64,000 nt of DNA, taken from assembly GCA_950295325.1 (NCBI GenBank), contig OX485804.1, forward strand, positions 56,532,429 through 56,596,428, read 5' to 3'. The translations under genes and the position numbers were made by a program. Below, one piece after another: positions 1 through 45,265 of this stretch; within the stretch, counting starts at the first letter, position 1, and every line of letters begins with the position of its first letter. A model generated the notes under the pieces. The model was given only the letters and a program-made list of their open reading frames with translations. It made no database searches and was not told the DNA's origin. The DNA comes from Polytrichum commune (taxonomy: Eukaryota > Streptophyta > Polytrichopsida > Polytrichales > Polytrichaceae).

Positions 1-1762
1 ACATCAGATACCGTAAGGAAAAGCTTACCAGCAATCGCCATCAGGTGACCTCTCCCCCACCGATCGCACACCACCAGGCTAGCCCGAAGAGAAATCAAGA
101 AAAAAACATCTTCATACACCAGCAGACTAAAGACGACCTAACTCCCCCCGCTACCCCACCAAAGGCTGGATTCAAACGCACACACAAGAAAGCATCACAC
201 AACACCAATGCGCTTCCCTATCCCCGAACAAAACAGACGCTACCTCCCCACTCAAAGACACCCTCAGCCCTCCAAATCCCTATGTACACCCTAAAGCAAC
301 TACCTGAACAACGAAGGTTACTTCAGAGAAGACCAAAACCCCTGGCTCCGAAACTTCGAAGCTTGCGAAACCTCCCACCCGCTCAAATAAGGTCGCTCGC
401 ACAAGGGCTCAGCACACCACCGCTCCACAATCAGCGCCGCCTCCACAACAATCACACAGCTCACACACACCACCCACACCACGAATTAGAACCTGCCACA
501 AACCAACCAGAATTACCCACAAACAGCCGCACAACGAACTCCGAAACAGACAGAGCCAACGAAGACACACACGAAGGAGCCCGAATTAGCAAACATGCCT
601 TCCTACTTAACAACCCCACCCCCAAGCATTGCATCATCCACCTCTCATCTCTCCAACAACGCCACATTCACAACACTCTACCACCTAGCACCCTCCCTCC
701 CCCTGCACACCCTTCACACTCCCCTCTCAGCTTTACTCTACTACATACGGCACCCTCCTCCCACTCGCCTCTCACCTCAAGCACCACCACTCTTCCTCCT
801 ACCCCCAGACACACAGCTGCCGAACAAGGGATCAGCAGCCCAGAGACATCACCAACACGACATCCATCAAGACACAACGCCACCCTCACTGCTACAAGAT
901 CCAAGACAGCTCCTGACGCCCCCGACATCCAACATCGAGCAAACAAAGACCAAAGACCAGCAACACCATTCATCAACAAGCTCCACCGATCGACACACCT
1001 GCACCTGCCACATTGAAGGTAAGCTCTGTACCCACCCACCTCAATTACACTCGCACCACAACAAAGGTAGATGCTGAACCCACTCACCTCAATTCCAATC
1101 GCACCTCACTGGGCAATAGAAAGTCTGATGAGAGATTGATCTGCAGAACAACTACAGTCACAACAAAGCCATCCCACAGCTGCCAAACGCATACACTCCT
1201 TTCAATTCACACATCCGACAGCAGACTCCTTCAATGTAGCCAAAATAGACCCAACATATACACTCGGCCACAACGGCGCACAGACGCACTCGACCCAAAA
1301 ACCCCACACCGACACTGGAGCACCCGACAATCCTCCCCGCCAGCACCGCGATTCCACACCCCAGCTGCCATACGCCAGTCCTCCTTCGAACTCCCAGTCA
1401 CCTCATAACAACAACAAGCAGAGCGAATTACACCACCCTGCCCCGAAGACTCGTCCCACTCCACAACGCCACACCACCAGCCCCCTGCGCACAAAGCAAC
1501 ACACATCAACACTTCACCAAAAACAGGACAAATCAACAGCGATACACCAGCGCCGCAGCAATACAACATTGACAGCCGAACACTTGAATTCCGACCAAGC
1601 ACCAGACCAGCTCCCACTCCAACACACACCACGCCCAACCCCCCTCAACAAAAAGCAGCACAAAGCAAGCCAACAACAGCAGATCAGTTCATCCCAACCT
1701 CGGCCAGCCCCCATAACTTATACACAACTACAGGTAACTTCTCAATCAACCCCCTCACTCCC
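1..1762 (+). other. LINE 5' region, C-rich, no secure ORF
   Basis: This stretch has very little G on the + strand, so several frames stay open by composition alone (for example 45-1016). One short stretch in the frame of the ATG at 208, around 298-390, reads like real protein (NYLNNEGYFREDQNPWLRNF, rich in aromatic and charged residues) but is bounded by stops. It may be a decayed N-terminal part of ORF1 or a separate leader ORF. I see no terminal repeat or element start, so the element probably begins upstream of the window. Confidence 0.5.
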
Positions 1763-3373
1763 ATGGAGCACATCCACTCGAATGCAGGTACTCCACAGCC
1801 GCAACCCTTGGACCTTCAATACCAAGAGTTTCGACAACAGATGTTCGCGCCGCCCCCGGCCCCCATCAACTCACAGACATCCCATCAGACTCCTCACTTC
1901 AACGATGAAGAAGCCGAAGAAGACTTGGACATGGACGCCCAACTCGAGAACGTCTCCCCGGAAAGGGGAAGTAGCTCCCTACAATTGACATATGAACGAA
2001 ATTCGAAGCAAGCCGCCACAACACTCTCCAAGCCCATCCACACCCCCGAGAGCACGCCGCCAACATTACAATACCGAAACCCAAGGATTGCCGACCCATC
2101 GGAGAGCCAAACTAGCAAGAGACGTAAAGCCGAGGACTTCACCGCAACATCCACACCCGAGGTGCCAAACAAGTGCACACCACCACTCTCACACACAAGA
2201 GCAAAGAGGATAGCCACTCTAAGCATTGACATGCTAGGCCAAATGTGGTTAGGATTCCAAATGCAAGAAGCTCTCGCCATCCAAAGAGGCAAGAAGGAGT
2301 TGAGAGAGCGTCGCACCGATGAGGAATTCACCAACATCGATACACCCGCAAGCGAAATTCAAGAATTCCGATCACTTCGGAGAGCATTCCCAAGAACGAA
2401 GCAAATCCTCTTCCCCACCGAACGTCCGGATGCGGTACCCGGTCAACATCTACATTTCACACAAATCCCCATGTACGAGAAGATTTCTCAAGAGACGGGC
2501 CTCACCGAAGGCTTCCATGTGACCATACGATTTGACGGAGAATACAAACAACTCAATAGGAAGGAGGTCAAGCTTGCATGCATAGAAAGGCTCCGCACCA
2601 TGAACATTCCTCTTGGCATCACCTACTCCAATCCCATAGACATCGGCATCAACACGGTCACACGGAATTGGGCCGGATTCATCAAAATCCACCTCTCACA
2701 TCCAAAACGTGATGGATTGGCGCTACTTCGAGGAGAGCGCGCTTTCGTCATGACCATGGGGGATGGGGAAATAATCATTGGTAAGGTAGAGAAAGGTTTC
2801 GAACTCATCACCAAAGCTCGGAACATGCGATTACACCTCAAAGGAAACACCCTCCGGAACAACACGGCCACCGACATACTTAGAAATCTCATGAGAGATT
2901 CTTACTACGACGGCCGTGAAATCGAGATCCTTTCACTCACCAAATCGGACACCGACAAGGACTTTGCATTCATCACACTCACCACCGAGGAAGCTAGAGA
3001 TGACATTCTCAACAACGGCCTCACCTACCATTCCGAGCGCCTCAAGGTAAGCATCACCAAAGACAAAAACGTGGGCAACCCATCAGAGCTAAGAATTAGC
3101 ACCACTCTTGTTGCAAACAACCTCCCACAACGGGAATCGCAATCAACGATTGTCAAATCCCTCAAGAGGCTAATAGGTGAGGAGAATGTCACCGGGGTCA
3201 CATTCGGACACCAAACCAAGCAAGAAGATGATAGGCAAGCCGGATGGTGTCACATCCAGTGCCTCAACGCGGCCGTTTACACGGAGTGGTTACATAAGTC
3301 CACCGACATCCTTGGAAGGCGAGTTGACTTTGTCCCGCACAAAGGTAGCATAGATGGCTCCGCATCCGGCTAG
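1763..3373 (+). CDS. LINE ORF1, RRM-like RNA-binding protein
   Basis: A 536-residue ORF placed where LINE ORF1 belongs. Residues 1-150 are Pro/Ser/Thr-rich and low in complexity, with a basic patch (KRRKAED). The C-terminal half has two stretches with RRM-like beta-alpha-beta-beta-alpha-beta spacing. The first is near GREIEILSLTKSDTDKDFAF. The second runs from LRISTTLVANNLP to GRRVDFVPHKGS. Such proteins bind LINE RNA and form the cytoplasmic RNP. The frame ends at TAG 3371-3373, but the +1 frame is open across the junction (from at least 3361) and leads directly into the next ORF, so the natural product was probably longer. The ATG at 1763 is the first in frame with good coding character; the real start could lie upstream. 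The RRM assignment rests on spacing and is inferred. Confidence 0.7.
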   Translation: MEHIHSNAGTPQPQPLDLQYQEFRQQMFAPPPAPINSQTSHQTPHFNDEEAEEDLDMDAQLENVSPERGSSSLQLTYERNSKQAATTLSKPIHTPESTPPTLQYRNPRIADPSESQTSKRRKAEDFTATSTPEVPNKCTPPLSHTRAKRIATLSIDMLGQMWLGFQMQEALAIQRGKKELRERRTDEEFTNIDTPASEIQEFRSLRRAFPRTKQILFPTERPDAVPGQHLHFTQIPMYEKISQETGLTEGFHVTIRFDGEYKQLNRKEVKLACIERLRTMNIPLGITYSNPIDIGINTVTRNWAGFIKIHLSHPKRDGLALLRGERAFVMTMGDGEIIIGKVEKGFELITKARNMRLHLKGNTLRNNTATDILRNLMRDSYYDGREIEILSLTKSDTDKDFAFITLTTEEARDDILNNGLTYHSERLKVSITKDKNVGNPSELRISTTLVANNLPQRESQSTIVKSLKRLIGEENVTGVTFGHQTKQEDDRQAGWCHIQCLNAAVYTEWLHKSTDILGRRVDFVPHKGSIDGSASG

Positions 3374-3384
3374 CCCATGCATCC

Positions 3385-3846
3385 GTGAAGGAGGTCATAG
3401 CTCAAAAAGCCCAAGCCATGCACAGCACCGCCGCCGCCTCTCCACTAGTCTCGGAGAAACTCTTCACTAAGGCCATAAAGAAGCTCACCGAGACCATGGA
3501 CGACAAGCTCAACACTCTCACTAGCAACATCAACCTCAACACGGATAAGCGTATCGAAGCATCAACGGACACACTCAAGTCACATGCAACCAACATCCAC
3601 AACATTATGAGCGCGATGGCCATGGAGTTTCAACAATCAAATCATCGCATACACAATATAATGCAAACACTAGCCGCCACCTCACCGGACCCCCCACACG
3701 CCAACACCGCAAGACTTCCACACGGACCACACAACACCACGGGAGAGCACAACATGGCACAACTAGCGCCACCGGGCTTCAACAACGGACACTATAGGAG
3801 CTCCCCATCAAGCTACCACAAAGGCCCAAACCATCCCCATGAATAG
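3385..3846 (+). CDS. LINE ORF1 distal part, coiled coil (frame-shifted)
   Basis: About 153 residues in the frame after a frame change from ORF1. The frame has no ATG at its left edge and is open back to at least 3361, so it is read here as the C-terminal continuation of ORF1 and not as a separate gene. Residues KLFTKAIKKLTETMDDKLNTLTSNINLNTDKRIEAS and the following stretch have heptad-like spacing of hydrophobic residues, consistent with a multimerising coiled coil. The tail is His/Pro/Asn-rich. Whether the frame change is a recent indel or a programmed shift cannot be told from one copy. It lies in front of an AT-richer spacer (3847-4077) that separates it from ORF2. Confidence 0.55.
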   Translation: MKEVIAQKAQAMHSTAAASPLVSEKLFTKAIKKLTETMDDKLNTLTSNINLNTDKRIEASTDTLKSHATNIHNIMSAMAMEFQQSNHRIHNIMQTLAATSPDPPHANTARLPHGPHNTTGEHNMAQLAPPGFNNGHYRSSPSSYHKGPNHPHE

Positions 3847-4077
3847 CACACCATTAGTACATGCATGGACGATACTCACACATATTCTATGTATTCTCCT
3901 ACTTATAAATAAAAATTTCCCACCACTCTCATTGCTACATGCATTATATCAATAACATATGGCCATTACAACATCCCAACTTCACATTACACACCAAATG
4001 TAACAATACGCCCAAATAACATAAATCACTCACACCACAAAGCCTCCATCACCTCTCATCAAAACCCCCCTAACAAC

Positions 4078-6186
4078 ATGTACAACACAATAAGCAACTC
4101 CCCAACCTTACCACTAGAACAACCCAAAATTCTAATTCCACCCATCAACACCACAACATATATAGGCAACTTCCGATACATAACCCACATAAATCTAAAA
4201 AACCCCAAAAGCAAAGCCTTCCAATACTACGTATGGAACAACTCTATAATCATCCTCTTAGGAGGAGATATCCAAACGAACCCGGGCCCTCAAATACACA
4301 TCCCTAACAACCATACAATAGACTACACCCAAAACAAAAAACAATCTCTCACACACAACATAATCATCCTCTACGCATACTTTAAAAATCTATTTGAACA
4401 ATACCTCAACCAACATACACCTATACCCCAAAACCATAACCTTAACCTCCTAAAAACTAGCAATACTCCAAATACATCCAAAGACACAAGCAACATGAAT
4501 ACACCACCAAACTTTTCCCCACTACACACGAACCAACCTAAACCCGTTACACAAATATCCCACAAGAAATCACAATTAAACATCATATTAAAATCCCATA
4601 TTCAACAACAACTACTTATACTTCAATGTGGTGATATCCACCCTAACCCAGGCCCTATGCCCAACCTCACACGAACACACCCCACCGCCCACAAAAGGCG
4701 ACAAAATACATACTTCCTACCAAGTACGATCAAATTTCAACCCGAATACCAACATCTAGCCAAAACATTCAAACCCTTTTTTCAAGCCACACACCAATTA
4801 CATGCACAAACAATATTTTCACTCCCACACCTACACAATTACATACAACAACACACAGACCACCCCCCCGCACGAATCATCTACGCATTAGTTGTAACGA
4901 TTAGCCCCTCAACGAAAATATGCAACACATATCTACAACAACCACCCCCACAAGACTGGACATCACATCTACTAGAAAAAATGACAACACTACCCAATCC
5001 CCCAGAAAGACACATAGACACCCCGCATCCATACATACAATTTCACAACATATACAAAGACATTATCACCCCTCCTAACACAATACACAAAAAACTATAT
5101 GACTGTATACACCTAAATCCCAATACACTTAACATCCAAAACATAAGTGAAGTATTCCCATATCTACCAAGGCAACTCCTCATAGAAGCATTAAGATATA
5201 ACGAACCCATAAATGAATACATACATCCTAACCCCCCACCGATACAAAACCCATCATACCCAAATAGACCAATCCCACTAACAAGTCAAGAAACATATGC
5301 TATAACATGGAATGCCTCCTCACTTAACACCGCCATGCCATGCCTACAGGACTTAATTACAAACCCCCAAAAACCCCCCTCCATTATCAGCATACAAGAA
5401 ACTAAACTATCCGCCACTAAATCCACAAAGCATATCCAAATATTGTTCCCACATTACAAACTTTTCTTTAATAACACGCACAACATCACACGGGTCACAC
5501 GCCAAAGAATGACCTACAGAGGTTATAGAGGTGGCTTACTACTACTAGTCCATAAGAAACATGCATTCCCAGGTAACCTTGCCAAAATCCCTACATCCGC
5601 AGAGATATCTCCGTTCCTTCAAATAACACGCATAGCAAACCAACCCTTACAACCTTGGCTTTTAATCAATATATACATGCCCTCACATGAGGAAGACATT
5701 CCTCTCATCCCTATCATACAAAATACCATAACTAATCAAATAAGTCTACACCCTAATCACACATACATATTATGTGGCGACTTTAATAGGGACATCGCCC
5801 TAATTGGAAGGCAAAATGACCTACAAACAACACCTCCACAACCGGAGGATCATATGTGGCGATCATTCACAACCGGCCTAGAATTATCCTACATCCCGAC
5901 AAACACCAAATTCTCAAGACAAGGAGGACACAACTACGCACAAAATAGTTTAATTAACGGCTTCTTCATCAAAACCCCCAACAACAACCAATACACCTCC
6001 ACTACAAATCAAAGTATTCAATTAAATTCCGACCACCTTCCCATACATTTACAAATCCCCCCAAACATACTCATTGCCAAAGACCCACTTACAACTTCCG
6101 AACCCCCACCTAGGATACTCAACCCCATACCAAAGGAGAACCTCGACGAATTCCACACAATTTTTTTTGAAAAAAACTCCAACTAA
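4078..6186 (+). CDS. LINE ORF2 N-terminal part: two 2A-like motifs and AP endonuclease
   Basis: 702 residues. Two NPGP motifs of the 2A type lie at residues 62-71 and 184-193, each just after a short hydrophobic run. From about residue 405 an AP-endonuclease domain is recognisable by its ordered motifs: TWNASS (N412), QETK (E441), INIYMP, CGDFNRD (D568, N570) and NSDHLP (D652, H653). This domain nicks the target DNA for target-primed reverse transcription. The usual signature residues are present, so the domain looks chemically complete. The frame is interrupted by TAA at 6184 and continues in the same frame into the RT region, so this is the first piece of one polyprotein. A C-to-T change of a CAA codon would explain the stop. 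The ATG at 4078 gives the longest frame and places the first 2A at a typical distance from the N terminus. Confidence 0.85.
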   Translation: MYNTISNSPTLPLEQPKILIPPINTTTYIGNFRYITHINLKNPKSKAFQYYVWNNSIIILLGGDIQTNPGPQIHIPNNHTIDYTQNKKQSLTHNIIILYAYFKNLFEQYLNQHTPIPQNHNLNLLKTSNTPNTSKDTSNMNTPPNFSPLHTNQPKPVTQISHKKSQLNIILKSHIQQQLLILQCGDIHPNPGPMPNLTRTHPTAHKRRQNTYFLPSTIKFQPEYQHLAKTFKPFFQATHQLHAQTIFSLPHLHNYIQQHTDHPPARIIYALVVTISPSTKICNTYLQQPPPQDWTSHLLEKMTTLPNPPERHIDTPHPYIQFHNIYKDIITPPNTIHKKLYDCIHLNPNTLNIQNISEVFPYLPRQLLIEALRYNEPINEYIHPNPPPIQNPSYPNRPIPLTSQETYAITWNASSLNTAMPCLQDLITNPQKPPSIISIQETKLSATKSTKHIQILFPHYKLFFNNTHNITRVTRQRMTYRGYRGGLLLLVHKKHAFPGNLAKIPTSAEISPFLQITRIANQPLQPWLLINIYMPSHEEDIPLIPIIQNTITNQISLHPNHTYILCGDFNRDIALIGRQNDLQTTPPQPEDHMWRSFTTGLELSYIPTNTKFSRQGGHNYAQNSLINGFFIKTPNNNQYTSTTNQSIQLNSDHLPIHLQIPPNILIAKDPLTTSEPPPRILNPIPKENLDEFHTIFFEKNSN
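4261..4290 (+). other. 2A-like ribosome-skipping motif 1
   Basis: Codons 62-71 of ORF2 read GGDIQTNPGP, matching the 2A consensus core (G-D-[VI]-x-x-N-P-G-P) with the hydrophobic run NNSIIILL just upstream. 2A peptides make the ribosome skip the Gly-Pro bond, releasing the upstream peptide. The invariant N-P-G-P is intact. The usual Glu after D-I/V is Gln here, so activity may be reduced. Confidence 0.75.
4627..4656 (+). other. 2A-like ribosome-skipping motif 2
   Basis: Codons 184-193 of ORF2 read CGDIHPNPGP after QQQLLILQ. The core G-D-I-x-x-N-P-G-P is complete. It lies 122 codons after motif 1 and well before the endonuclease. If both work, ORF2 would yield two small peptides (about 70 and 122 residues) and the enzymatic part starting at Pro193. 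Confidence 0.75.
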
Positions 6187-8150
6187 ATAAACGAACTTAC
6201 ACAACTCTTACAAAATAACCAATTGATAAGCGAACAATGGCAACTAGCTTGCAACTCATTTGACACACTCACCGACAACATCACTACCACCGTCCTAGAA
6301 ACATGTAGCACCCCACCAATACCCATACTACCAAACCATATCGCTAAACAAGGAAGATACCTACCAAAGAAATCCCAAAAACAATGGAAACTAAACCTAT
6401 CGACCTACCACCTAATCCGTAAGACAATATATATCATAAAAAACAACCCGAATTGGCGCACCCATCCTATTGTCACTCACGAATTAATCAACCACTTCCA
6501 CACTACTCTACCCCCACCACCCGATCCCTCACTAGAATACAACTCATGGATCGCCACACTAGCCACAATAGCAAAGGAAGCTAAACACAAAGCCCGAAAA
6601 ATTACGAGTGACTATACTAACACACAAATCAAAAAAACCATATCCAAATACCAACAACTCTACGATAAGAGCCCCAAGAAAATAAACAGAAAAGTCTTCA
6701 AGAGTAATGGCACCCCCTCACTAGACTGTCTCATAGATAGAAATAACAACATCCTCACAAACCCGAAAGATATCGCACAAGAAATACACGTCCAACAATC
6801 AACTAGTAATAGACCCACCGTTCCAACATGTTACTATCAACCCGACCACACACCACAATGCATATGCGGAGTTAGACAATAACCGTGGCACGATTTAAAT
6901 GGATACACCATTGAAAAAAGAGGGGACGCGCTAATTCCCTTACATACATATCTAGATCAAGAGACATATGACATATGCCTCAAAAATTTGGCCAATGGAA
7001 AAACCCCCGGACCCGATAAAATACCCAACGCCATATTGAAAAACATGCTACCAAGATTCCACAAATTGCTCCTATTATTTTTTAAACATTGTTATAAGCA
7101 AAAATAAATTCCCGAATCTTGGAAAACAAGTCTCACGATACTTCTATACAAAAAGGGAAACCCTCACAACCTTACCAACCATAGACCCATAGCACTCGCT
7201 AATACAATATATAAACTATTCACTAGTACACTTACAAGCATCCTCTCCGCATACGGAGAAAAATACCAAATCCTACATGACAGTCAAGAGGGCTTTCGAG
7301 CCGAAAGATGCACCGCCTGACAACTACAAACTATAATCGCCGCATTAGAAGATGCATGATTCACCAACCAAGACATCTACATCCTATACATTGACTTTAA
7401 AAATGCATTTGGATCTATTGACCACGCTAGACTCCTTGTTATTATGAAGGACCTAGGATACCCACAAGACGCGGTGGCACTAATAGGCAATATTTACGCA
7501 CAATCCACTACTACATTTACCAGAGAACATTTTGGTAAAACTCAACCTATACCCATACAAAGAGGAATTATACAAGGAGATACATTAAGCCCGTACTTTT
7601 TCATCATCTTCCTTGAACCATTCCTTAGGTGGTTACAAAGGGGAAATAACGGCTACACCCTTAATACCTCCAATACTAAACTAAGTTCTGCAGCCTACGC
7701 CGATGACCTAGCCGCAATATCCAACAACCTAACCTCCCTCCAACTCCAACTAAACAAACTCGACAAATATTGCGAATGGGCAGGAATGGACCTTGGCATC
7801 TCAAAATGTGTCGTCATCGGATGTCCTAACAAATCGAAACAAAATTCCCAAGTCTTTAAAACACACCTCGAAAACGCTAATATCAATTTCCGGGACCAAC
7901 CCATCCCTACCCTAAGCCAACACGAACCATATGTCTACCTAGGCATCAATTTAGTTCCATCACTACAATGGAAAATACAAACACACATAACAACAACCAA
8001 ACTAGCCCAACAATGCAAATTACTAACCTCATGCCCAGCCACTATGAAGCAAAAAATACAAATGGTTGATACAGTCATAAGAGCCGGCATTGCCTATAGC
8101 TTTTATGCGGTCCCCTATTCACTTCCCGCCATTAAAAAACTTGATAAAAA
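6187..8150 (+). CDS. LINE ORF2 middle part: reverse transcriptase (interrupted)
   Basis: Same frame as the endonuclease piece. Recognisable RT motifs are NGKTPGPDKIPNAIL (near 6991-7040), the LYKKG...NHRPIALANTIYK block, YIDFKNAFGSIDH (near 7390), QRGIIQGDTLSPYFF (near 7557) and YADDLAAI (YADD at 7696-7707), followed by thumb residues. This enzyme copies the LINE RNA onto nicked target DNA. In-frame stops at 6880, 7105, 7318 and 7357 break it, and the frame shifts at an eight-A run near 8144-8151. The TGA at 7318 sits in an otherwise conserved stretch and fits C-to-T decay of a CGA codon. Motif order and catalytic Asp residues are intact, so decay is recent. Confidence 0.85.
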
Positions 8151-11100
8151 AAATAATTGCTCTACACAAAACTATATGTGGTCTCCCAAAATGTATGTCA
8201 AACGCGGTCACACAACTCCCCCAAGCTATGTTTGGCATGGAAGCATTCTCACTAAAAAATACATACATCACATGTATCGGAGAACAACTCATAAATGCCC
8301 TCAATGACAAAGGAAGACTCGGGAAAATATATAACGGACTAACAAAATACATACTTGCCAAACATGGCGGATTGCTAAACCTACCACGCATAACCCAACA
8401 TGATTGTATAAGATCGTCAATTACAAGAACCCTATACCTACTCAAAACAACTAGCGGAGCCCATTTAAAAAGCACTCTTGAAAAAATTCCCCTCCTTCCC
8501 ACACCACTCGAAACACAATGGATGCAACAAGCACAAAATATACCGACATTAACCCCTACAACCTCTCTAAAATACCTGCATCAACTAATACTACACAACA
8601 TAACCGAGCTCAAACACATAACCCACTCTAATGGCACACAATTAATGACCAACGATGAATTCAAAAACTACTATGTCACACCCACTAAAACAATTAAAGC
8701 CGCCTTAGACCAAGCCCGAATACTTTTTTGTGAACCACCATGTCCAAATCAATGCCCGAACACCCTAAAAAATGCATACAAAATACTAAATCGTCATATA
8801 GATACAAGAACTAGTAACCACAATGTACACCCCCCGCCACCACCTCCTCCACCCGAATATCCAAAACCACCACCGCACATCCTAAAAAACCACATACAAT
8901 TCCCACTCCACTCCATAATAAAGGACCGTTCCCACACCTACAAAGATAAAAACAAAATTACAAAAGAATATACATCCTATCTATGTCAATGGATACTCCC
9001 AAATGAATCAATATACAACAAATGGCTTCCTCAAAGAGAATTATTCCCATGGGAGAACCAAAATACCATAAACCATAACATACTACTACTAACACAATAC
9101 TATACTCACAAACAAAATCAACACTTCACCAACATCCTAAAATTAAACTTCGATGAAACACAAATAAAAGACACAAGACACATCCCCCCCCCCCCCCCCA
9201 CACAAATCATACATCAATGTCAAATCAATATTGGTGAATGTAACCCCGATAGTGACATCGCATGCACACAACCCATCATCCAAAGCCAACACGGTGCATC
9301 ACATATTTATGACAAGGATGGGCGCCATATAATTACCATTCCGGAACAAAGATTACAATGGCTATGGAAACAATATCAAAACGCACTCCATCAATCGCAC
9401 GATTTAGAACCCCCCACACAATCCTTTGAAAAGGAAGTAGTATGGTTGTACCAACGGTACAAATATAGAATTCCTAAAAACGACCCCCTTAAACTCTCCC
9501 ACTACACACTACCACATGCCATCCTTGAACACATCATTGATTCATTCGAAATCACACATTCACACTTCTCATCCCCAGTAACATGTCCCACATCACTAAG
9601 ACAATTCTCCTCCCCATTCCCTAGAGATAAAGTCTTTGGGTCAATAGGGACAGCCTTCCAACATAAATGGATTGGGAATGGGTATGCCCACCCTCATTCT
9701 GAAAAAGACACCCAACAAGCCCTCCATTGGGCACGACTTGCAGCTCAAAATGACCCAGATACAATAACAATACTTATAAACACCGACCCCGACTGGTACC
9801 ACAACCTACACCCCCATAATGGTCATTTTTCGGACTCGCATGTCATCACACATTTTAAAGCAGATACCATTACATACGATGAACCCACAATACCACCCGA
9901 ATTACAAATCGAACCCCGAATAGAAAGCCGCGACATTCAAGTATTATGCATACACCACAAAACCTCTCCCCCTCGACCAAGAAACTATGCATGTCAAATG
10001 GACATCATTGGCACCACACTACAAATACCCACCATATTCACCACAAACGTACCACCAACACCATTTAATACCACAGTAAATCGAAGTAAGAAATGGTCCC
10101 AACTCGCATACCCCCCTTCCCCACCGTCGATCCAAATTGCTAACACCCCCCTACTCACCAACCACAACATATGCCTACCCCTCAAATACCAACCACAATT
10201 TTGTTATTATACGGATGGATCATTCATACCCCCCAAAGCAATAACCCAAGAACACTGGAGGCGAGAAAAAGCAGGGTATGGTATATACAACCCTTTCAAA
10301 AATCTCAAAATCGCAGAAAGATTACCAGGACTCCAAAATATTTTAAGAGCAGAACTCATGGCTATACACCACACCCTCCGCCTCCTTACTACCACATATC
10401 ATAATGAACCCGCACATATTTTCACAGATTGTCTCAATGTTTTATATCTCATCAACACACAAACAAAACACCCAACTGTACATAATAGTCACCCAGACAA
10501 GAAAATACTCGAATCTATAGTTAAAATGTTACAAGACCGCACACAAACCACCACACTTCATAAAGTCAAAGCCCACACGAATATTAGTGGCAACGAGCAA
10601 GCGGATAAATTAGCCAAAATGGGATGTGAATTAGCACATAGAGATGCACTAGCAACACACGAACATGCACACCCCACTCCATATTATCTCCACAAACAGT
10701 GGTGGCACTCAATGCAAGACACACCCGATAAAGGTCCCATACGACACCTTGGAAAATACATCCTTAAACACGACAAAAAGCACAACCTAACAATTATGGC
10801 ATCCCAAACACACCAATTACACAAATGGTTGGACAACAAAGACATCGACAAACCATTATCAAATGCTTTTTGGAACAACCCGGTTATCACCGATAAACAA
10901 AAAACATGCCTAGTAAAATTTAGAACCGGCCAATATATGGGACATGCCAGGAAACAACTCTTCTTTGGTAGAACCGCATACCCATCCCACACATGCCCTA
11001 TCTGTAACTCACCAGAAGCAGATACATGGTTACATGTACTCCTTAAATGTAAACAACAACACATCCACGCACTAATCACAAATAGACATAACAAAGCGGT

Positions 11101-11668
11101 ATGGGAAATCCGTAAACTTCTCATCTCAAACAAACTTACTAGATATTATACACTTATGAACGCAGGAACACACAACGATTCCCCACAAGAAAATACAGTA
11201 CCTACATGGCTATTACCATGCACATGCAACACCCAACGATGTCATTGCAATGCTCGGCTCAAACCCGACATATTATGTGTCATTGGTCATCCATACAATT
11301 CCCCCCCACCAGAAGCACCCACACAAGAAGTCACAATACAATACATAGAATTCACATATTGTAATGACAGGTTTTCGGCCGAAACACTAGAAAGAAAAAC
11401 CATGAAATATCAACCACTTATTAACACCCTCACTACAAAAGGATGGAAGGTTGCCCCACTTATAGTACTAGCATCCGGCGCTAGAGCCACAACTCATATC
11501 CCCTCGATGAAGGCACTAGAAACACAACTCAAACTTCCCACAACACAAATTAGGCACACATTTCAACAAATCAACATAATCGCCATACAATATGCACACT
11601 CAATACTAATCCACAAAAGACGAATAGAAAATAGACAACCCATCACAGACCTACAAAATCATAATTAA
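8144..11668 (+). CDS. LINE ORF2 C-terminal part: MTase-like domain, RNase H, CCHC finger, RLE-like motif
   Basis: An open frame from 8090 to 11668 (1192 codons), genuine from the shift at about 8144. After the RT thumb and a Pro-rich linker comes a block at about residues 505-625 (FSSPFPRDKVFGSIGTAF ... TILINTDPDWYHN ... VLCIHHKT) that resembles PCIF1/N6-adenine methyltransferase-like domains, though its NPPF-type site is replaced by AHPH. RNase H follows with D709 (TDGS), E755, D780 and D839 (ISGNEQADKLA), complete. Then comes a C-x2-C-x9-H-x4-C finger (from residue 969) and KPD (1058), EFT (E1087) and K..KY, the order seen in restriction-like endonucleases of R2/RandI LINEs. RNase H and the finger are certain by motif, the RLE is likely, the MTase link is tentative. 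Confidence 0.85.
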   Translation: MKKIIALHKTICGLPKCMSNAVTQLPQAMFGMEAFSLKNTYITCIGEQLINALNDKGRLGKIYNGLTKYILAKHGGLLNLPRITQHDCIRSSITRTLYLLKTTSGAHLKSTLEKIPLLPTPLETQWMQQAQNIPTLTPTTSLKYLHQLILHNITELKHITHSNGTQLMTNDEFKNYYVTPTKTIKAALDQARILFCEPPCPNQCPNTLKNAYKILNRHIDTRTSNHNVHPPPPPPPPEYPKPPPHILKNHIQFPLHSIIKDRSHTYKDKNKITKEYTSYLCQWILPNESIYNKWLPQRELFPWENQNTINHNILLLTQYYTHKQNQHFTNILKLNFDETQIKDTRHIPPPPPTQIIHQCQINIGECNPDSDIACTQPIIQSQHGASHIYDKDGRHIITIPEQRLQWLWKQYQNALHQSHDLEPPTQSFEKEVVWLYQRYKYRIPKNDPLKLSHYTLPHAILEHIIDSFEITHSHFSSPVTCPTSLRQFSSPFPRDKVFGSIGTAFQHKWIGNGYAHPHSEKDTQQALHWARLAAQNDPDTITILINTDPDWYHNLHPHNGHFSDSHVITHFKADTITYDEPTIPPELQIEPRIESRDIQVLCIHHKTSPPRPRNYACQMDIIGTTLQIPTIFTTNVPPTPFNTTVNRSKKWSQLAYPPSPPSIQIANTPLLTNHNICLPLKYQPQFCYYTDGSFIPPKAITQEHWRREKAGYGIYNPFKNLKIAERLPGLQNILRAELMAIHHTLRLLTTTYHNEPAHIFTDCLNVLYLINTQTKHPTVHNSHPDKKILESIVKMLQDRTQTTTLHKVKAHTNISGNEQADKLAKMGCELAHRDALATHEHAHPTPYYLHKQWWHSMQDTPDKGPIRHLGKYILKHDKKHNLTIMASQTHQLHKWLDNKDIDKPLSNAFWNNPVITDKQKTCLVKFRTGQYMGHARKQLFFGRTAYPSHTCPICNSPEADTWLHVLLKCKQQHIHALITNRHNKAVWEIRKLLISNKLTRYYTLMNAGTHNDSPQENTVPTWLLPCTCNTQRCHCNARLKPDILCVIGHPYNSPPPEAPTQEVTIQYIEFTYCNDRFSAETLERKTMKYQPLINTLTTKGWKVAPLIVLASGARATTHIPSMKALETQLKLPTTQIRHTFQQINIIAIQYAHSILIHKRRIENRQPITDLQNHN

Positions 11669-12176
11669 AATTAGAGAGGGGTAGTGGTCAGACCACTAGT
11701 TATTAAGTTACCACCTATAGCTCAGAAAGGCGGGGAGTAGCCGGCTGGTTGGCATAACTTTCCTGCCTATGATTAACTCACTTGCAGCACCAAGTCACAG
11801 TGTATTGCACTAACACGCTCAGACGGATTCAACGAGAATCGAACCCGGACCGTATTAATATAACACGCATGTCCTTATCCAACCAACCTTGGAACCATGA
11901 CTTGGCGACCAACTATACAACCAACCACCACTTATACTCCAAACAAATAAGCACGCTTCTCGTCCCAAACAAAGTAGCAAGACCCACAGAAAATTCTAAA
12001 TTAAAACCCATGCACCCTACACACCCCCTCCCCCCCCCCCCCCCCCCGGTTTAACCGGTTAAAACATCAGTTACTAACATAGTGTCTACTCCCTGCAAAG
12101 GGTGAAGTAGTATTACACCCAACGCCGCTACCCTGGGGTACGGCCACGGTTGTCCTACGAACAGACACTTTATTCA
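11669..12176 (+). other. LINE 3' UTR
   Basis: Noncoding region between the ORF2 stop and the terminal hairpin. It includes a C-rich run with about 17 C at 12031-12048, a small inverted repeat around GGTTTAACCGGTTAAA (12049-12064) and a tRNA-like segment on the minus strand. Confidence 0.7.
11820..11900 (-). other. tRNA-like segment inside LINE 3' UTR
   Basis: Read on the minus strand, the segment has a box A/D-arm-like stretch (CCAAGGTTGGTTGGATAAGG), a possible anticodon stem (CGTGT/ATACG) and a good box B/T-arm core (CCGGGTTCGATTCTCG). The acceptor ends do not pair and the anticodon loop lacks the expected T33, so it is not a functional tRNA. It could be a tRNA-derived SINE head or a tRNA pseudogene captured in the LINE tail. 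Confidence 0.4.
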
Positions 12177-15309: not shown

Positions 15310-18300
15310 CTAAGTGCTAGATAGTGGCATGTTATTCGGTGACTGGATCTCGATCGGAGACCGCAACCCACTGTTCCGCATCCCTTTGTGCGCGAAGCAT
15401 CGCTTCCTGTCCGGCCTCGGTGCCACTATACACACAGTACCATCCTCTAATCGCAATCCACAAATTCCTCTTCGACTGGCAGGAACCTCATTCTGTGCCT
15501 CTGTCCATGTCGAAAGGGTACTCTGGTATGTTACACTTCGCTTACCGCCCTCGATTGAATGTCGGGGCCGAAGTCCTATGCCACCACCGATGCCCTCCAT
15601 CTCATCCATGGCTGTGAGCCATTCGGTGCCTTTGGATTTTCGAAGCTCCGAAGTCCGCAACCACGTGTTGAACGAAATGCTTCCCCTTCGCTTGGGCTCT
15701 TGTGGCACACTTACAGGTGGCTTCGATCCGGATGGTGTAAAAAACGGGAAGCATGACTCAAACATCCATGATTCCCTTGCAGTTCTTAAATTAAATTTAG
15801 GGTTAGAATTCGGGGCTCTGGTTTGAAAGGAGGAATTTCGTTGCGAAGGAGGAGTGCTTTGGACTGTGTGAGCTACTCGAATTGGCTTCCTTTGGCTCCG
15901 CCTCTTTGCATTCTTGTGCATGAGGCAGCGCTTCCGACCTTTCACGGGAAGAGCACTGCATGGTAGCCCGCTGTCTAAGATAGCCCCGCACCGCTCCACA
16001 GGTATGTCAAGCATGGTGAATTCGGAGGTTTTGGCTGCCTTCCGTCCCCCCAGCAGCATGAATGCATCGCCTACTTTGTTTGTTCTGTCTCCGTAAATTA
16101 CCTCCGGTCTTCGTGCAGGGATCCAGATGCCAGGCCTCTTTCTCCTGAAGAAGAACCACCTACGTCTCGATGATCTATTCCCGAAACAGCATGTGGAGGA
16201 TTCTTTGTTTCCCGGTGCCCCTCCCATGACGATCTTCGCCAATATGTCCGGTGAGCGTTGCCGCACATTTCCCCGGTTCCATGCATAGTCAAAGACTAGC
16301 ATGAGCTGAGACTCTATCCTCTCGGCTACGAGTTTACTATCCGTCTGCACAACAGACACAATGCCGCTCTGAGCACAAGTATTGTAATATATTGAAAGAG
16401 CTATCTACCGCGCTACTGCTTCCCTCGGGTGTTTTCGATACCTAAGAGGTGGTATTACGCAATTTCCATCCACATCCTCTTCAACTACGTCCCAGATGCA
16501 AAACCAGAACAGCACTGGAATTAAGTTGACACACGATTTAGCTCAGCCAATTTGCAGGGTCAATTGCCGTGAGCACAAGAATTGGCACACACTGATCAAA
16601 CTGGGAGCTATCTACAACGGCATTGCTTCCTTCATGGGGTTTGGTATCATCTAAATTCCTCTCCAACTAAGTCCCACATGCAACACCAGAGCGACACTGA
16701 AATCTATACGTTTAGCTCAGCCAATAGCAGGGACGCAATGAGCACAAGCATTGGCACACATTGATCAAATTAAGGGTTATCTACCACAGGAATTGCTTCC
16801 CCTCGTATGATTTGCATACCTAAAAGATTCTAATGCAATTTCCATCCACGTCCTCTTAAACGTAGTCCACGGTTTAGCAAACCCAATTGCATGGAACATC
16901 ATTCTAGCGAACAAGCCAGCATCAGTGTCTGAATGAAGATGGAATACTACACTACCTGGAAGATTAGGAGAACGAAACTTACAGCTGCCCATCGGTAGGC
17001 TATGGAACAACCCAAGGCAAAAATCTCTGAAAAGAGGCGAGGGCCACGCGGTGAGCGATTTCCACGTTCATGTTGACGTTCGCGTTCAGGTCCAGGAGAC
17101 ATGAGCTCAGCGAGGTTTGGTCGTCTTTCGTCTGTGCTAAAGCGACCTCCATCAACAGCATCCTTTCTTTCATCCTTACCCATTTGCTTGAAATCCATGT
17201 TGATCCATGCTTCATCAACGCTGGTCCTCCGTTCATCCGAATTGACTAGTCGGACGGAGCTTGTTCGTCTCTCATCTGTGCTCATCCGCACAGCATCAGC
17301 ACTTGAACACCTCTCTAGGGATCTTGTGGGCCTGTCGTCTGTTCTCATACGCCCATCCTCCACGGTTTGTGGATTGCTTGCCATTTCATTCTTGGCAAAA
17401 AACAATCTGGTTGACCTACAGGGGGATCACACACACACAATTGGTCTCAGTCTCACTAAAACAAGACCATGCCAAGCTTTCACATACATGCTTCATACAT
17501 GTGCCCCTGCATCGTCAACAGCGTCTGAGAGCTGTATGCTCGAACTTGATGCACCGACATCCGAAAGTCGTCAATTGAGAGTTTGATCTCAAAAACCTCC
17601 TGGTATTCGTTCACCACGTGATTCTCGGATAGCAGTTAGAGTGCACACGAGGGCCTGGGACCTACTGGTATGTAGGATCACATCAATACTGTAAAGGTCC
17701 AACAACGATGCACGCATTGCATGAGTTGGACCTTAATCCTCATGGCATCAATATCCATTCTGTTTTGCTTTGAAGCTTAGCTTCAGATCAATTTCACATA
17801 CATGGTGCACACTTGCGTCCCTGGATCATCAATAGCGTCCGATAAGTCCATGATCGGAACTTGATGCACTGAAATTCAGTATTCGTCGATTGAAAGTATG
17901 AGCTCAACAACCTCCTGGATTTCGTTTGCAATGTCATCCTCGGACAACAATTCGAAGAAACACGAGGGCCAGGAATCTACTGGTAAGTAAGATCACGTAA
18001 ACGGTGAAAAGATCCAACAAGAATGCAGGCATTGCGTGGTTTGGACCTTAACCCTGATGGCAATACCCCTTCTGTTGTGATCCTTTAAAGCTCAGTTTCA
18101 GATCAATTTCTTAGTGACGTCTCTATTCCCACTCTATTGCTCGTCCCTGGATGCACCCAGAAATTTGTACAGACAGGAGTTAGGGTGCGGGAAGTGTAAC
18201 TGACCTTGAGCCTTCGAGGTGAGCACCAGCTTGGCCATAGCGCTGCAAACGCTGGCAAATGTTATCAGCGTGGCCGACATACACAACAATCACATCTCTG

Positions 18301-25129: not shown

Positions 25130-25775
25130 TCTCACTAAGGCATGTACCTCACCTCAAAAATACAAGCATAAGGAAAAATTCAGATTTCTTAAGGAGGGTG
25201 ATGCATGTGCCTCATCCTAAAACACAAATTCAAAACATAAAATTTTGTTTCATAAGGGTGAGACATGTGCCTCAACTCTAAGCACAAGCTTAAGGAGAAA
25301 TTTAGATTTCTCAAAGGGGGTGAGACATGTGTCTCATCCTAAAAAAACAAATTCAAAACATAGAATTTTATTTCATAACGGTGAGGCATGTGCCTCACCT
25401 CTAAGGACAAGCTTAAGGAGAAATTCATATTTCTCAAGGAGGGTAAGGCATGTGCCTCATCCCAAAAACAGAAATTCAAAACATAAAATTTTGTTTCATA
25501 AAGGTGAGGCATGTGCCTCAATTCTAAGCACAAGCTTAAGAAGAAATTCAGATTAATTTTCTCAAGGAGGGTGAGGCATGAGACTCACCAAAAAAAAAAA
25601 TTCAAAATATAGAATTTTGTTTCATAAGGGTGAGACATGTGCCTCACCTCTAAGCACAAGCTCAAGGCGAAGTTCAGATTTTTTAAGGAGGTTGAGGCAT
25701 GTGCCTCACCCCAAGAAAAAAAATTCAAAATATAGAATTTTGTTTCATAAGGGTAAGGCATGTGCCTCACCTCTA
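25130..25775. repeat. Subterminal array 1: palindromic GTGAGGCATGTGCCTCAC motif
   Basis: About eleven copies of a motif with 8-bp arms (GTGAGGCA/TGCCTCAC) separated by 2 bp, spaced about 60 bp apart. Two alternating spacers (one with AAGCTTAAGGAGAAATTCA, the other with ATTCAAAACATAGAATTTTG) give a higher-order period near 122 bp. The copies start near 25136, 25200, 25258, 25321, 25381, 25445, 25505, 25569, 25629, 25691 and 25752. Confidence 0.9.
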
Positions 25776-26599
25776 AGTATAAGCTTAAGGAGAAATTCAT
25801 ATTAAAATACGATGTTATTTGAATATTGAATAAGAGTTGGTATTGAAGCGCCTATGTAAGTAGAAAGTAGAGTCGAAGATCAGTTGAGCTGCAAAGGAAG
25901 ATATTATAGTTATTGGATAATGGATTGAACGCAATAAGATGATAGAGAGTTGAAGAATCAAAAATATGCAGCAATAGGTTAGATGATGTAGTACTAGAAA
26001 AACTTTTAAACTTTGGAGGAATAATAATTAGAAGAAGGAGTGAAGAGGTACCATCGCAAAAAAACAAGAAGGTGTTGGAATAAGAGTTGCAAGAGTAAGA
26101 GGCGCCGAAGTAGATCAGTGTTGGAGAATAGAGGCATTGGAAAAGAGCGGTGGTGGAGAAGAGCAACGTTGGAATAGAGTGGCGGCTGAAAAACTTGACC
26201 TAACCCTAAGCGGCGTTTTAGGTTAGTTCAAACGTTTATTTTTTAATCTTATATGTGTGGACAAACTTTGTATTGGTCTATCATCCACAAATTTAAGAAT
26301 TTACACTTGAATTTTTTTAGGTGGGTTGGTGGCACTATTCTACTCATACCTAGCAATGTTTTTAGTTTTTGGGAAAAAAATAGATTTTATATAAATATTT
26401 GATTTAATTTACATAAATATTATAAATACAACTTCAAAATATATTTTATTGTAATATATATTATAAAAACATATTCACATCAATATCCATATTTGTTCAA
26501 ATTTAATTCAAGTATTGCTCATTTCAACTTAGGGGTAATGGGAGGTTGTTTATATTATATTCTCCCGTATTTGGTTTTTACCCTTACATATTTTAGAGC

Positions 26600-43683: not shown

Positions 43684-45265
43684 TGTCAGCCATAACCCCC
43701 ACCCTTATGCGTCTTAGTCCGGGTGGGAGCTTTTGGTTCACATATGATTAAATGGATTCAATACACCATCGGATTTGGCCCTCCACCATTTCAACAATAT
43801 GGATCCCACACACACACAATTTTACTCCCAATGAAATGAGATTACAAGCATTGAAGAATGTTGTTTGACTTTGTGGGTGTCACCCCAATTAGCCCAACAT
43901 GTTTTCCACACCTTGTTCTCAAACCCTACATCCTACCACACAAAAGCTCCTCTTAACTTGGCTTAGGGTAAAACCCCACGTGAATATTTAAGCACTAGCC
44001 ACCTTCCACTACCTTTCAACCCTTTAATATGTCCCCCCAATATCATCTCTCTGCCCACACTATAACTAATTAGTCCAACCAAATGCAACACACCCCAGCT
44101 GCCCTTGAATTCCCTAATCCCCTGTTCTGTCCATCCCTCCGCTGTTCCGTGTCATCTGCCAGCTGCCTGTAGTCCCCTCAGTCCGCCCGATTGCCTTTGC
44201 CACCTCCCTCAGCCTTAAGGGTACCAGTCACCCCTTCGACCCACATTGAGTGCAGCTACCTAATGTCCAGCAGTCCCCAATCTGAGTTCTCCCGGCCCTG
44301 AATGCACAATTCTGAAACCCAATCCCTCGCAAGTGAATCACCAGGCTTCAAATCTTCAACTGTTGTGCAATTACGTGCACCTCCTTAATTGCCCTGCACA
44401 CATAACTTTAAGGAGGCTAAACCCTTTGAATCCAGGACCCGTGCGGCAGCTGAACTTGCCGAATATGTTGTGCCTGATCAATGTTGATTCCTTCTCCCTT
44501 GTGCTCTTAGGTGTGAGGCCATGAATTCAGTGCGGAGGAACCATGATTCTCTCTGGCCCAGCCTGCATTTTAGCTTCCTTTGAATTTCCCTTCCGCCCTC
44601 GAACGCATTGGCACTGGCACTCTCCTTCAACCCAATTAGCATGCATTCCCTTTCACGACTAGATCCACTCACCCTGGCTTCCCCATTTATGCTCCGCTCA
44701 TCCCAGAGCATCAACTTGGCTTCCTTCACAGTCACAATGTTGGCCTCTCCTCGGCTAGCTGCCGCCCCGAATCATCCAACCCCCTTGCGTCTTTTTTTTC
44801 CTCCACCTGGTTACGGCTGCCTTCCTGCCGAGAGAGAGTTTCTTCCAAAACCAACCTCAACATCCAGGGGACCCCCGCCTGGGATCCGGAGATCCCGGCT
44901 CTAATCCACAAGGGAAGGAGACCCCCCCCCCTTAAACCAACCGTAACCAAGGCCCAAAACGAACAACATCCTAAGCCTAATCCACCATGAAACTAGCCCA
45001 AGTCGAACAATTTACTTGCCTCGGGCCACTTGAGCCCTTTGAAACTATCCGATACTTAAGTTAATCAACTTGTTTTTTATTTTCTTTAAATTCTAATAAC
45101 TCAACTCAACGCCTAAACCAACTAAATCTACAACCACTCGAACCACCTCTAAATCTCAAGCATCATACCCGTTATCACCTAGACAACACAAACAACCCCA
45201 ACTGCTAATGTGTTTTTTATGATTTTGGTGTTAAGTTGTCCTGTGAGCACGATATTGGGCTCACA
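43684..45265 (+). mobile_element. Solo LTR A (family S), fossil
   Basis: Starts TGTCAGCCATAACCCCCACC and ends ATATTGGGCTCACA, 1582 bp. Flanks ATCAA (43679-43683) and ATCGA (45266-45270) form a 5-bp target duplication with one difference. It shares the TTATGCGTCNTAGTCCGGGT box near its start and a C-rich second half with LTRs B and C. No internal region remains, so it is a solo LTR from recombination. Age is old judging by low similarity to its relatives. Confidence 0.8.

Follow-up and report, generated by a model that had tools for sequence, protein, structure and literature searches.

2A-like sites of APE-type non-LTR retrotransposons were reportedly described by Odon in 2013, and the 2A-like site of L1Tc from Trypanosoma cruzi is said to have been described by Heras in 2006. 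According to the part of a 2026 survey on which we draw (PMC12846837), StopGo is wide among RNA viruses and rare in cellular genes; natural use by plant viruses is not recorded in that part, and the mechanism works in plant cells. The N-terminal 2A signal of sea urchin separates proteins in Nicotiana (Roulston et al. 2016, PMC4981915, in the portion cited here). Natural 2A use in plants is hardly documented. Among the papers listed by our literature search, none described a 2A site in a plant LINE, and an earlier report in Rao 2025, the main survey of cellular 2As, or in Odon 2013 is still possible.

The window, that is the whole 64-kb stretch of Polytrichum commune DNA analysed here, carries two motifs of this kind on the plus strand, both in the N-terminal part of the ORF2 protein of a moss LINE. 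The plastid psaB protein of the genome also points to a moss: it scores 1701-1705 bits against 8htu, 6l35 and 7ksq, photosystem I structures of Physcomitrium patens, 1667 bits against the next entry and at most 1630 against the others of the 60 entries listed. GGDIQTNPGP lies at 4261-4290 (core 4267-4290) and CGDIHPNPGP, which we call the anchor site, at 4627-4656 (core 4633-4656, with MPNL immediately after). They share one frame, 366 nt or 122 codons apart, and each follows a hydrophobic run, SIIILL in the first case and LLILQ in the second. The original prediction had named two 2A-like motifs with hydrophobic leads, 122 codons apart at 4261-4656 in a plant LINE ORF2; positions, frame and leads were confirmed, and the element is indeed such a LINE, with APE, RT and RNase H domains. 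The frame that holds both sites is open over 3913-6186 and continues into the APE endonuclease domain (PF03372, E 3.8e-7). Judging from the sequence, both motifs are likely to be natural sites of 2A-type (StopGo) ribosome skipping that a moss LINE family carries in its ORF2, and skipping there would release the enzyme from the leaders.

A six-frame search of the 64 kb found D[VI]xxNPGP at these two places only; the third NPGP of the window, at 44429, is without the remainder of the pattern. On the plus strand the pattern was absent from all 300 second-order Markov sequences modelled on the first 11.7 kb. When the genome was scanned (407.8 Mb; 64 contigs, of which seven are large), the DNA pattern GGNGAYRTHNNNNNNAAYCCNGGNCC for GD[VI]xxNPGP gave 425 matches (230 + 195) and its backwards control gave 0. 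Chance or base composition as the source of the motifs was rejected on the strength of both controls.

The LINE reads along the plus strand. ORF1 (about 1409-3846) consists of open frames 1409-3373 and 3349-3846 and ends in PPGF...NHPHE-stop, and at 3839-3846 the ORF2 start ATG overlaps the ORF1 stop TAG in the sequence ATGAATAG. ORF2 opens with a hydrophobic N terminus, MNSTPLVHAWTILTHILCILLLINK... (3839-3952). The leader domain IGNFRYITHINLKNPKSKAFQYYVWNNSIIILL (4162-4260), of the pattern GN.YITH.H.K.PK...YYTWNN..ILL, ends in the first 2A-like site; a weakly constrained linker or second leader of 122 residues (4288-4653) follows, and after it comes the post-2A domain PMPNLTRTHPTAHKRRQNTYFLPSTIKFQPEYQHLAKTF... 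(4654-5300), for which tblastn gave a match in 50/50 copies. Further downstream lie the APE-type endonuclease domain (5302-6045; PF03372, PF14529), the reverse transcriptase domain with its C-terminal part in an open frame (7369-7950; PF00078), a PCIF1-like region between RT and RNase H (9377-9718; PF12237, E 1.2e-9), the RNase H domain (10199-10627; PF00075) and the ORF2 C terminus (10631-11668, stop at 11666-11668), where a CPIC...H...C knuckle and KPDI...IEFTYCNDRF were recognized by eye. PF03372 and PF00078 both score over the cut-off in the window, and PF14529 and PF00078 do so in one frame of the homologue L025, as befits an APE-type LINE. The element is multicopy and dispersed: contigs C1-C7 hold at least 57 more distinct homologues of the ORF2 N terminus. 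The window copy itself is broken: ORF1 changes frame near 3349-3373, the ATG at 3839 leads just 38 open codons before its frame is shut, and in-frame stops stand at 6184-6186 and 6880-6882. Our conclusions therefore apply to the LINE family. At 4001-12000 of the window the element's coding strand is very poor in G (GC skew -0.35 to -0.58), so that the G-rich 2A codons stand out.

Leaders and post-2A domain hit no Pfam family at cut-off, the window leader having two weak sub-threshold matches; the post-2A domain matched nothing in Pfam at E values up to 0.5 and nothing in the PDB at values up to 0.1. In L025 (2630-7054, minus strand) the RT has R2 as its best solved-structure match, with 88 bits, and L1 ORF2p scores 46 bits. 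The ORF2 C terminus, by its KPDI...IEFTYCNDRF motif read by eye, is possibly a restriction-like endonuclease; a PDB search with it gave no match. NPPF is the catalytic motif of PCIF1. Because no NPPF box was seen in the PCIF1-like region at 9377-9718, and G[YF]AHP stands at about its place in 13 aligned copies (judged by eye), the region may be derived from the cap-adenosine methyltransferase and be non-catalytic. Structure models of this region and of the C terminus were poor (mean pLDDT 37), below use for fold search. Elsewhere in the window, an open frame at 15310-16404 on the minus strand has a weak GIY-YIG match (PF19239, E 4.4e-5) and presumably resembles plant EFFECTOR OF TRANSCRIPTION proteins, a tandem array at 25138-25805 comprises 5.4 copies of units of about 123 nt, and no tRNA genes were found in the 64 kb.

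Conservation was followed in 50 copies, the window plus 49 of the 57 distinct ORF2 homologues, picked by homology and not by motif; each of the eight left out has a site of the genome list about where it is expected (by arithmetic). The anchor position was located in 50/50 copies through homology of the post-2A domain. Its core is intact in 40/50, namely 37 in frame and three (L023, L037, L039) beside a frameshift, and each of the remaining 10 carries a single NPGP substitution. Where 5´ sequence suffices for counting by hand (39 copies, the window and L009-L046, once-changed sites included), at least two sites are present in 28 and one in 11. Three intact cores occur in L032, L037 and L039, and L014 has four sites, two of them decayed.

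Selection was measured as dN/dS by Nei-Gojobori counts. The pairs are non-independent, decaying copies are included and synonymous positions approach saturation; even so, adjacent stretches within the same copies differ strongly. For the anchor, the 47 copies with an in-frame D[VI] (three frameshifted ones excluded) were de-duplicated at 95%, which left 34. The ratio is 0.068 in the core, 0.19 at -14..-9, 0.92 at -30..-16 and 0.17 at +1..+20; a first run with 26 copies chosen of 50 gave 0.055, 0.092, 0.85 and 0.185, in the same order. With L040 and L062 excluded as shifted, 24 de-duplicated upstream sites gave 0.085 in the core, 0.22 at -14..-9, 0.50 further up and 0.70 after. Five of the 38 upstream sites came from motif-picked places; with such places removed, 19 sites gave 0.097, 0.17 and 0.54, and 0.77 in the 20 residues after, and before de-duplication 31/33 cores were intact. 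Over 20 copies whose two sites share a frame, dN/dS in the linker is 0.58 for all pairs and 0.65 for near pairs; it is 0.056 in the 2A stretch p6-p19 and 0.30 in the next 100 codons. The check proposed with the original prediction, conservation of both NPGP motifs while the linker varies, thus came out in its favour (anchor core, upstream core without motif-picked places, and linker over all pairs). The sites are under strong purifying selection as translated protein, the constrained part being the octapeptide and about six preceding residues, and the sequence beyond it is loose or exchanged.

These values bear on a reading in which the anchor 2A alone works and the upstream sites are leftovers of leader swaps, no longer relevant. 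It accords with an anchor that is intact or recognisable in 50/50 copies, with upstream sites that are missing from some (the 11/39 single-site copies) and with the Q at p14 of the first window site, for which the cited part of PMC12846837 reports 26-56% activity. However, constraint on the upstream cores comes close to that on the anchor, the 20 residues after them are loose, and we regard this reading as unlikely.

The residue at p14 needs separate consideration. Neither window site, DIQTNPGP or DIHPNPGP, has the canonical D(V/I)ExNPGP: p14 is Q or H, and the other fixed positions fit. Because p14 departs from the canonical E, we term them 2A-like variants. Among the 425 genome sites p14 is the canonical E in 256, H or Q in 144 and another residue in 25 (by subtraction), with R in one listed site; among the 47 in-frame anchors it is K in three. 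The variant p16 = H is also present, as DIEPHPGP in L038 and L046. In the cited part of Li et al. (2026, PMC12846837), variants with p14 = H and with p16 = H exceeded 95% activity when assayed within natural contexts in reticulocyte lysate, and the activity of E14Q was 56% or 26%. In the same part, L-rich leads ending in (A/S/C)G accompany p12 = D, and an L-rich lead ending in CG before D fits the published motifs 2/6. The anchor site has just such a hexapeptide lead with p12 = D, LLILQCG before D; the lead of the first site, IIILLGG, is L-rich with final GG instead of (A/S/C)G. Going by the published p14 activities, the anchor (p14 = H) should be efficient and the first site (p14 = Q) partial.

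Conservation alone would equally fit a protein feature, such as a protease site or a binding motif, with no skipping signal, and H, Q or K at p14 in many copies is in keeping with it. Yet the fixed residues together with the L-rich (C/S)G lead match StopGo, the constraint lies in p6-p19, the motif stays while the surrounding leaders differ entirely, and both the p14 = H and p16 = H variants are active in the cited part of PMC12846837. We consider such a feature very unlikely.

Another way of obtaining a separate enzyme is translation that begins with the Met immediately following the anchor NPGP, without any skipping. An ATG does directly follow the core in 46/47 in-frame anchors and in 268/425 genome sites. 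Against this, the motif ahead of the ATG is selected at the protein level, a second LINE clade of the same genome (L052, L057, L059) has Leu after the core, and in eight copies (L011, L013, L015, L016, L018, L021, L023, L027) ORF2 is open from a ATGAATAG-type start through the anchor. Internal initiation at this Met thus seems highly improbable.

Sites of the genome list were further sampled for variety at 14 places (15 sites). In 14/14 the post-core residues read MPN[ILV]... or L[ST].IL..., which are two forms of the post-2A domain; some of the sampled copies are degenerate. On contig C1, for which the list is complete, 94 sites fall into 80 clusters (68 single, 10 double, 2 triple). Genome-wide, single sites are thus the rule and the tandem pair is not typical, and since 68/80 C1 clusters are single we regard tandem sites as a subfamily trait. 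The spacing of neighbouring sites is divisible by 3 in 13/14 pairs on C1 and in 14/19 H/Q pairs picked by eye on C2-C4, the five out-of-frame ones being expected for decayed copies. The same LINE copy, with identical scores, was found at C3:869579 and C24:6792, which is probably assembly redundancy. A search for relatives in viral contigs gave 20 pattern stretches, none of them confirmed.

We turn to the leaders. The original prediction took the paired arrangement for a duplicated module, which does not hold: the first site ends its own leader domain and the sequences upstream of the two sites differ, so we rejected a simple module duplication as the origin of the window pair. An apparent module duplication is seen elsewhere, in L059 (C2:36080200-36082200), where two similar 2A plus post-2A modules lie 801 nt apart in one frame. 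The window-type leader domain also stands ahead of a single 2A in L052 and L057, and similar leader segments occur in many copies, an intact or once-changed 2A core being nearly always next. Because the leader occurs before a single 2A elsewhere and the number of sites varies by copy, leader modules must be both stacked and swapped.

Copies about 93-97% identical after the anchor bear three unrelated leaders, and the break falls at the 2A codons in several pairs. Over the 3 kb after the anchor, the pairs L027/L013, L027/L016, L016/L013 and L021/L013 have 94-97% identity; the same four have 56-80% at -400..-60, 49-52% at -1000..-500 and 60-78% with many gaps at -3000..-1300 (mostly ORF1). L013/L027 and L013/L032 have 93-97% after the motif versus 60% and 52%, respectively, at -400..-60. 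In ungapped 30-nt steps, identity over the final 30 nt of the motif is 90-97% for L013/L027, L014/L027, L013/L032 and L027/L032, with 90-93% among L013, L027 and L032, and it drops to 40-50% in the 30 nt preceding; an indel would also lower identity in ungapped steps, and the gapped comparison gives the same picture. The break of L013/L021 lies about 120-150 nt ahead of the motif end. The window copy and L010 behave as close relatives should and have no break, with 93-98% identity as far as -400 and about 88% at -1000..-500. The simplest reading of these alignments is that template switching or recombination attached different 5´ parts to the same enzyme body, at the 2A codons or close to them. 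Since near-identical enzyme bodies carry unrelated leaders, 2A-tipped leaders are both swapped and stacked, with up to three intact sites in a copy. More tentatively, and as a serious possibility that we stop short of calling probable, we propose that the 2A codons are the joint between self-releasing, interchangeable 5´ leaders and the LINE enzyme body in mosses. They might both free the leader and offer a short shared sequence for joining new leaders, so that several 2A-tipped leaders could stack and N termini, possibly targeting or host-facing, could change without harming the polymerase.

The mechanism we envisage starts at the ORF1/ORF2 junction. Other LINEs such as SART1 are known to use stop-restart coupling. 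ATG[AG]ATAG, the ORF2 ATG overlapping the ORF1 stop, is present in 16/20 copies examined, and ribosomes would start ORF2 through stop-restart at ATGAATAG. The Gly-Pro bond would then be skipped at each 2A, in the first site at the predicted point between Gly 4285-4287 and Pro 4288-4290, and one or more leaders would be released. The APE-RT-RNase H protein would be made as a separate chain with the N terminus Pro-Met-Pro. Because each leader would remove itself, 5´ modules could be stacked or exchanged with the enzyme undisturbed. Two small leader peptides had been suggested; release of leaders fits the scheme, and the smallness is not general for the first one, as the first site stands 153 to 425 residues from the ORF2 ATG in the eight copies open through the anchor and L010, and 187-425 residues from it in the eight alone.

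The first released leader would usually have a hydrophobic N terminus. In the first 30 residues of ORF2 the best 15-residue hydropathy is at least 1.6 in 12/16 copies and 1.0-1.3 in four. The 2A-leader might therefore double as a targeting signal, unskipped enzyme going to membranes or ER and skipped enzyme to cytosol and nucleus, as with the sea-urchin NLRs, for which the cited part of PMC4981915 gives a precedent in plant cells. This N-terminal segment is, however, weakly constrained (dN/dS 0.66 in 8 copies), and we find the targeting role possible and rather doubtful. Several points also count against skipping itself, our preferred explanation: p14 is non-canonical at both window sites and K in some anchors, the window copy is broken, and the N-terminal segment is weakly constrained and clearly hydrophobic in only 12 of the 16 copies.

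If the explanation is correct, a moss genome with 425 sites, of which those sampled belong to LINE frames, would provide a StopGo system native to a plant. Its naturally varied sites (p14 E/H/Q/K, p16 H) would test the motif rules, and plant-native 2As, if working well, would also be useful tools. The moss LINE would also exemplify recoding that apparently allows protein modules to be exchanged.

There are parallels in several known systems. Like the moss LINE, Paavivirinae picornaviruses have several tandem 2A-NPGP, about 50-150 residues apart and varying in number between relatives; unlike it, they are animal RNA viruses, and their sites occupy the 2A region, which separates the capsid from the replication proteins, instead of the N terminus of a retroelement enzyme (PMC11512398, in the part cited). 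The sea-urchin NLR 2A is likewise N-terminal, has signal-sequence ability and is active in plant cells, whereas NLRs are cellular immune genes (PMC4981915, in the portion cited). Dualen/RandI resembles the moss element in having APE and RNase H, a likeness we draw because the moss RT, by the L025 bit scores nearer R2 than L1, goes together with APE and RNase H; Dualen/RandI has APE plus a restriction-like endonuclease, whereas the second endonuclease of the moss element is a candidate by eye, and no 2A is described for Dualen/RandI in the cited part of PMC4640811. With the APE-type non-LTR elements of Odon 2013 and with L1Tc, the moss family shares a 2A-like site in an APE-RT LINE protein. Unlike these elements, it has one to several sites per copy, many of them p14 = H/Q variants, and it exchanges leader domains at the site.
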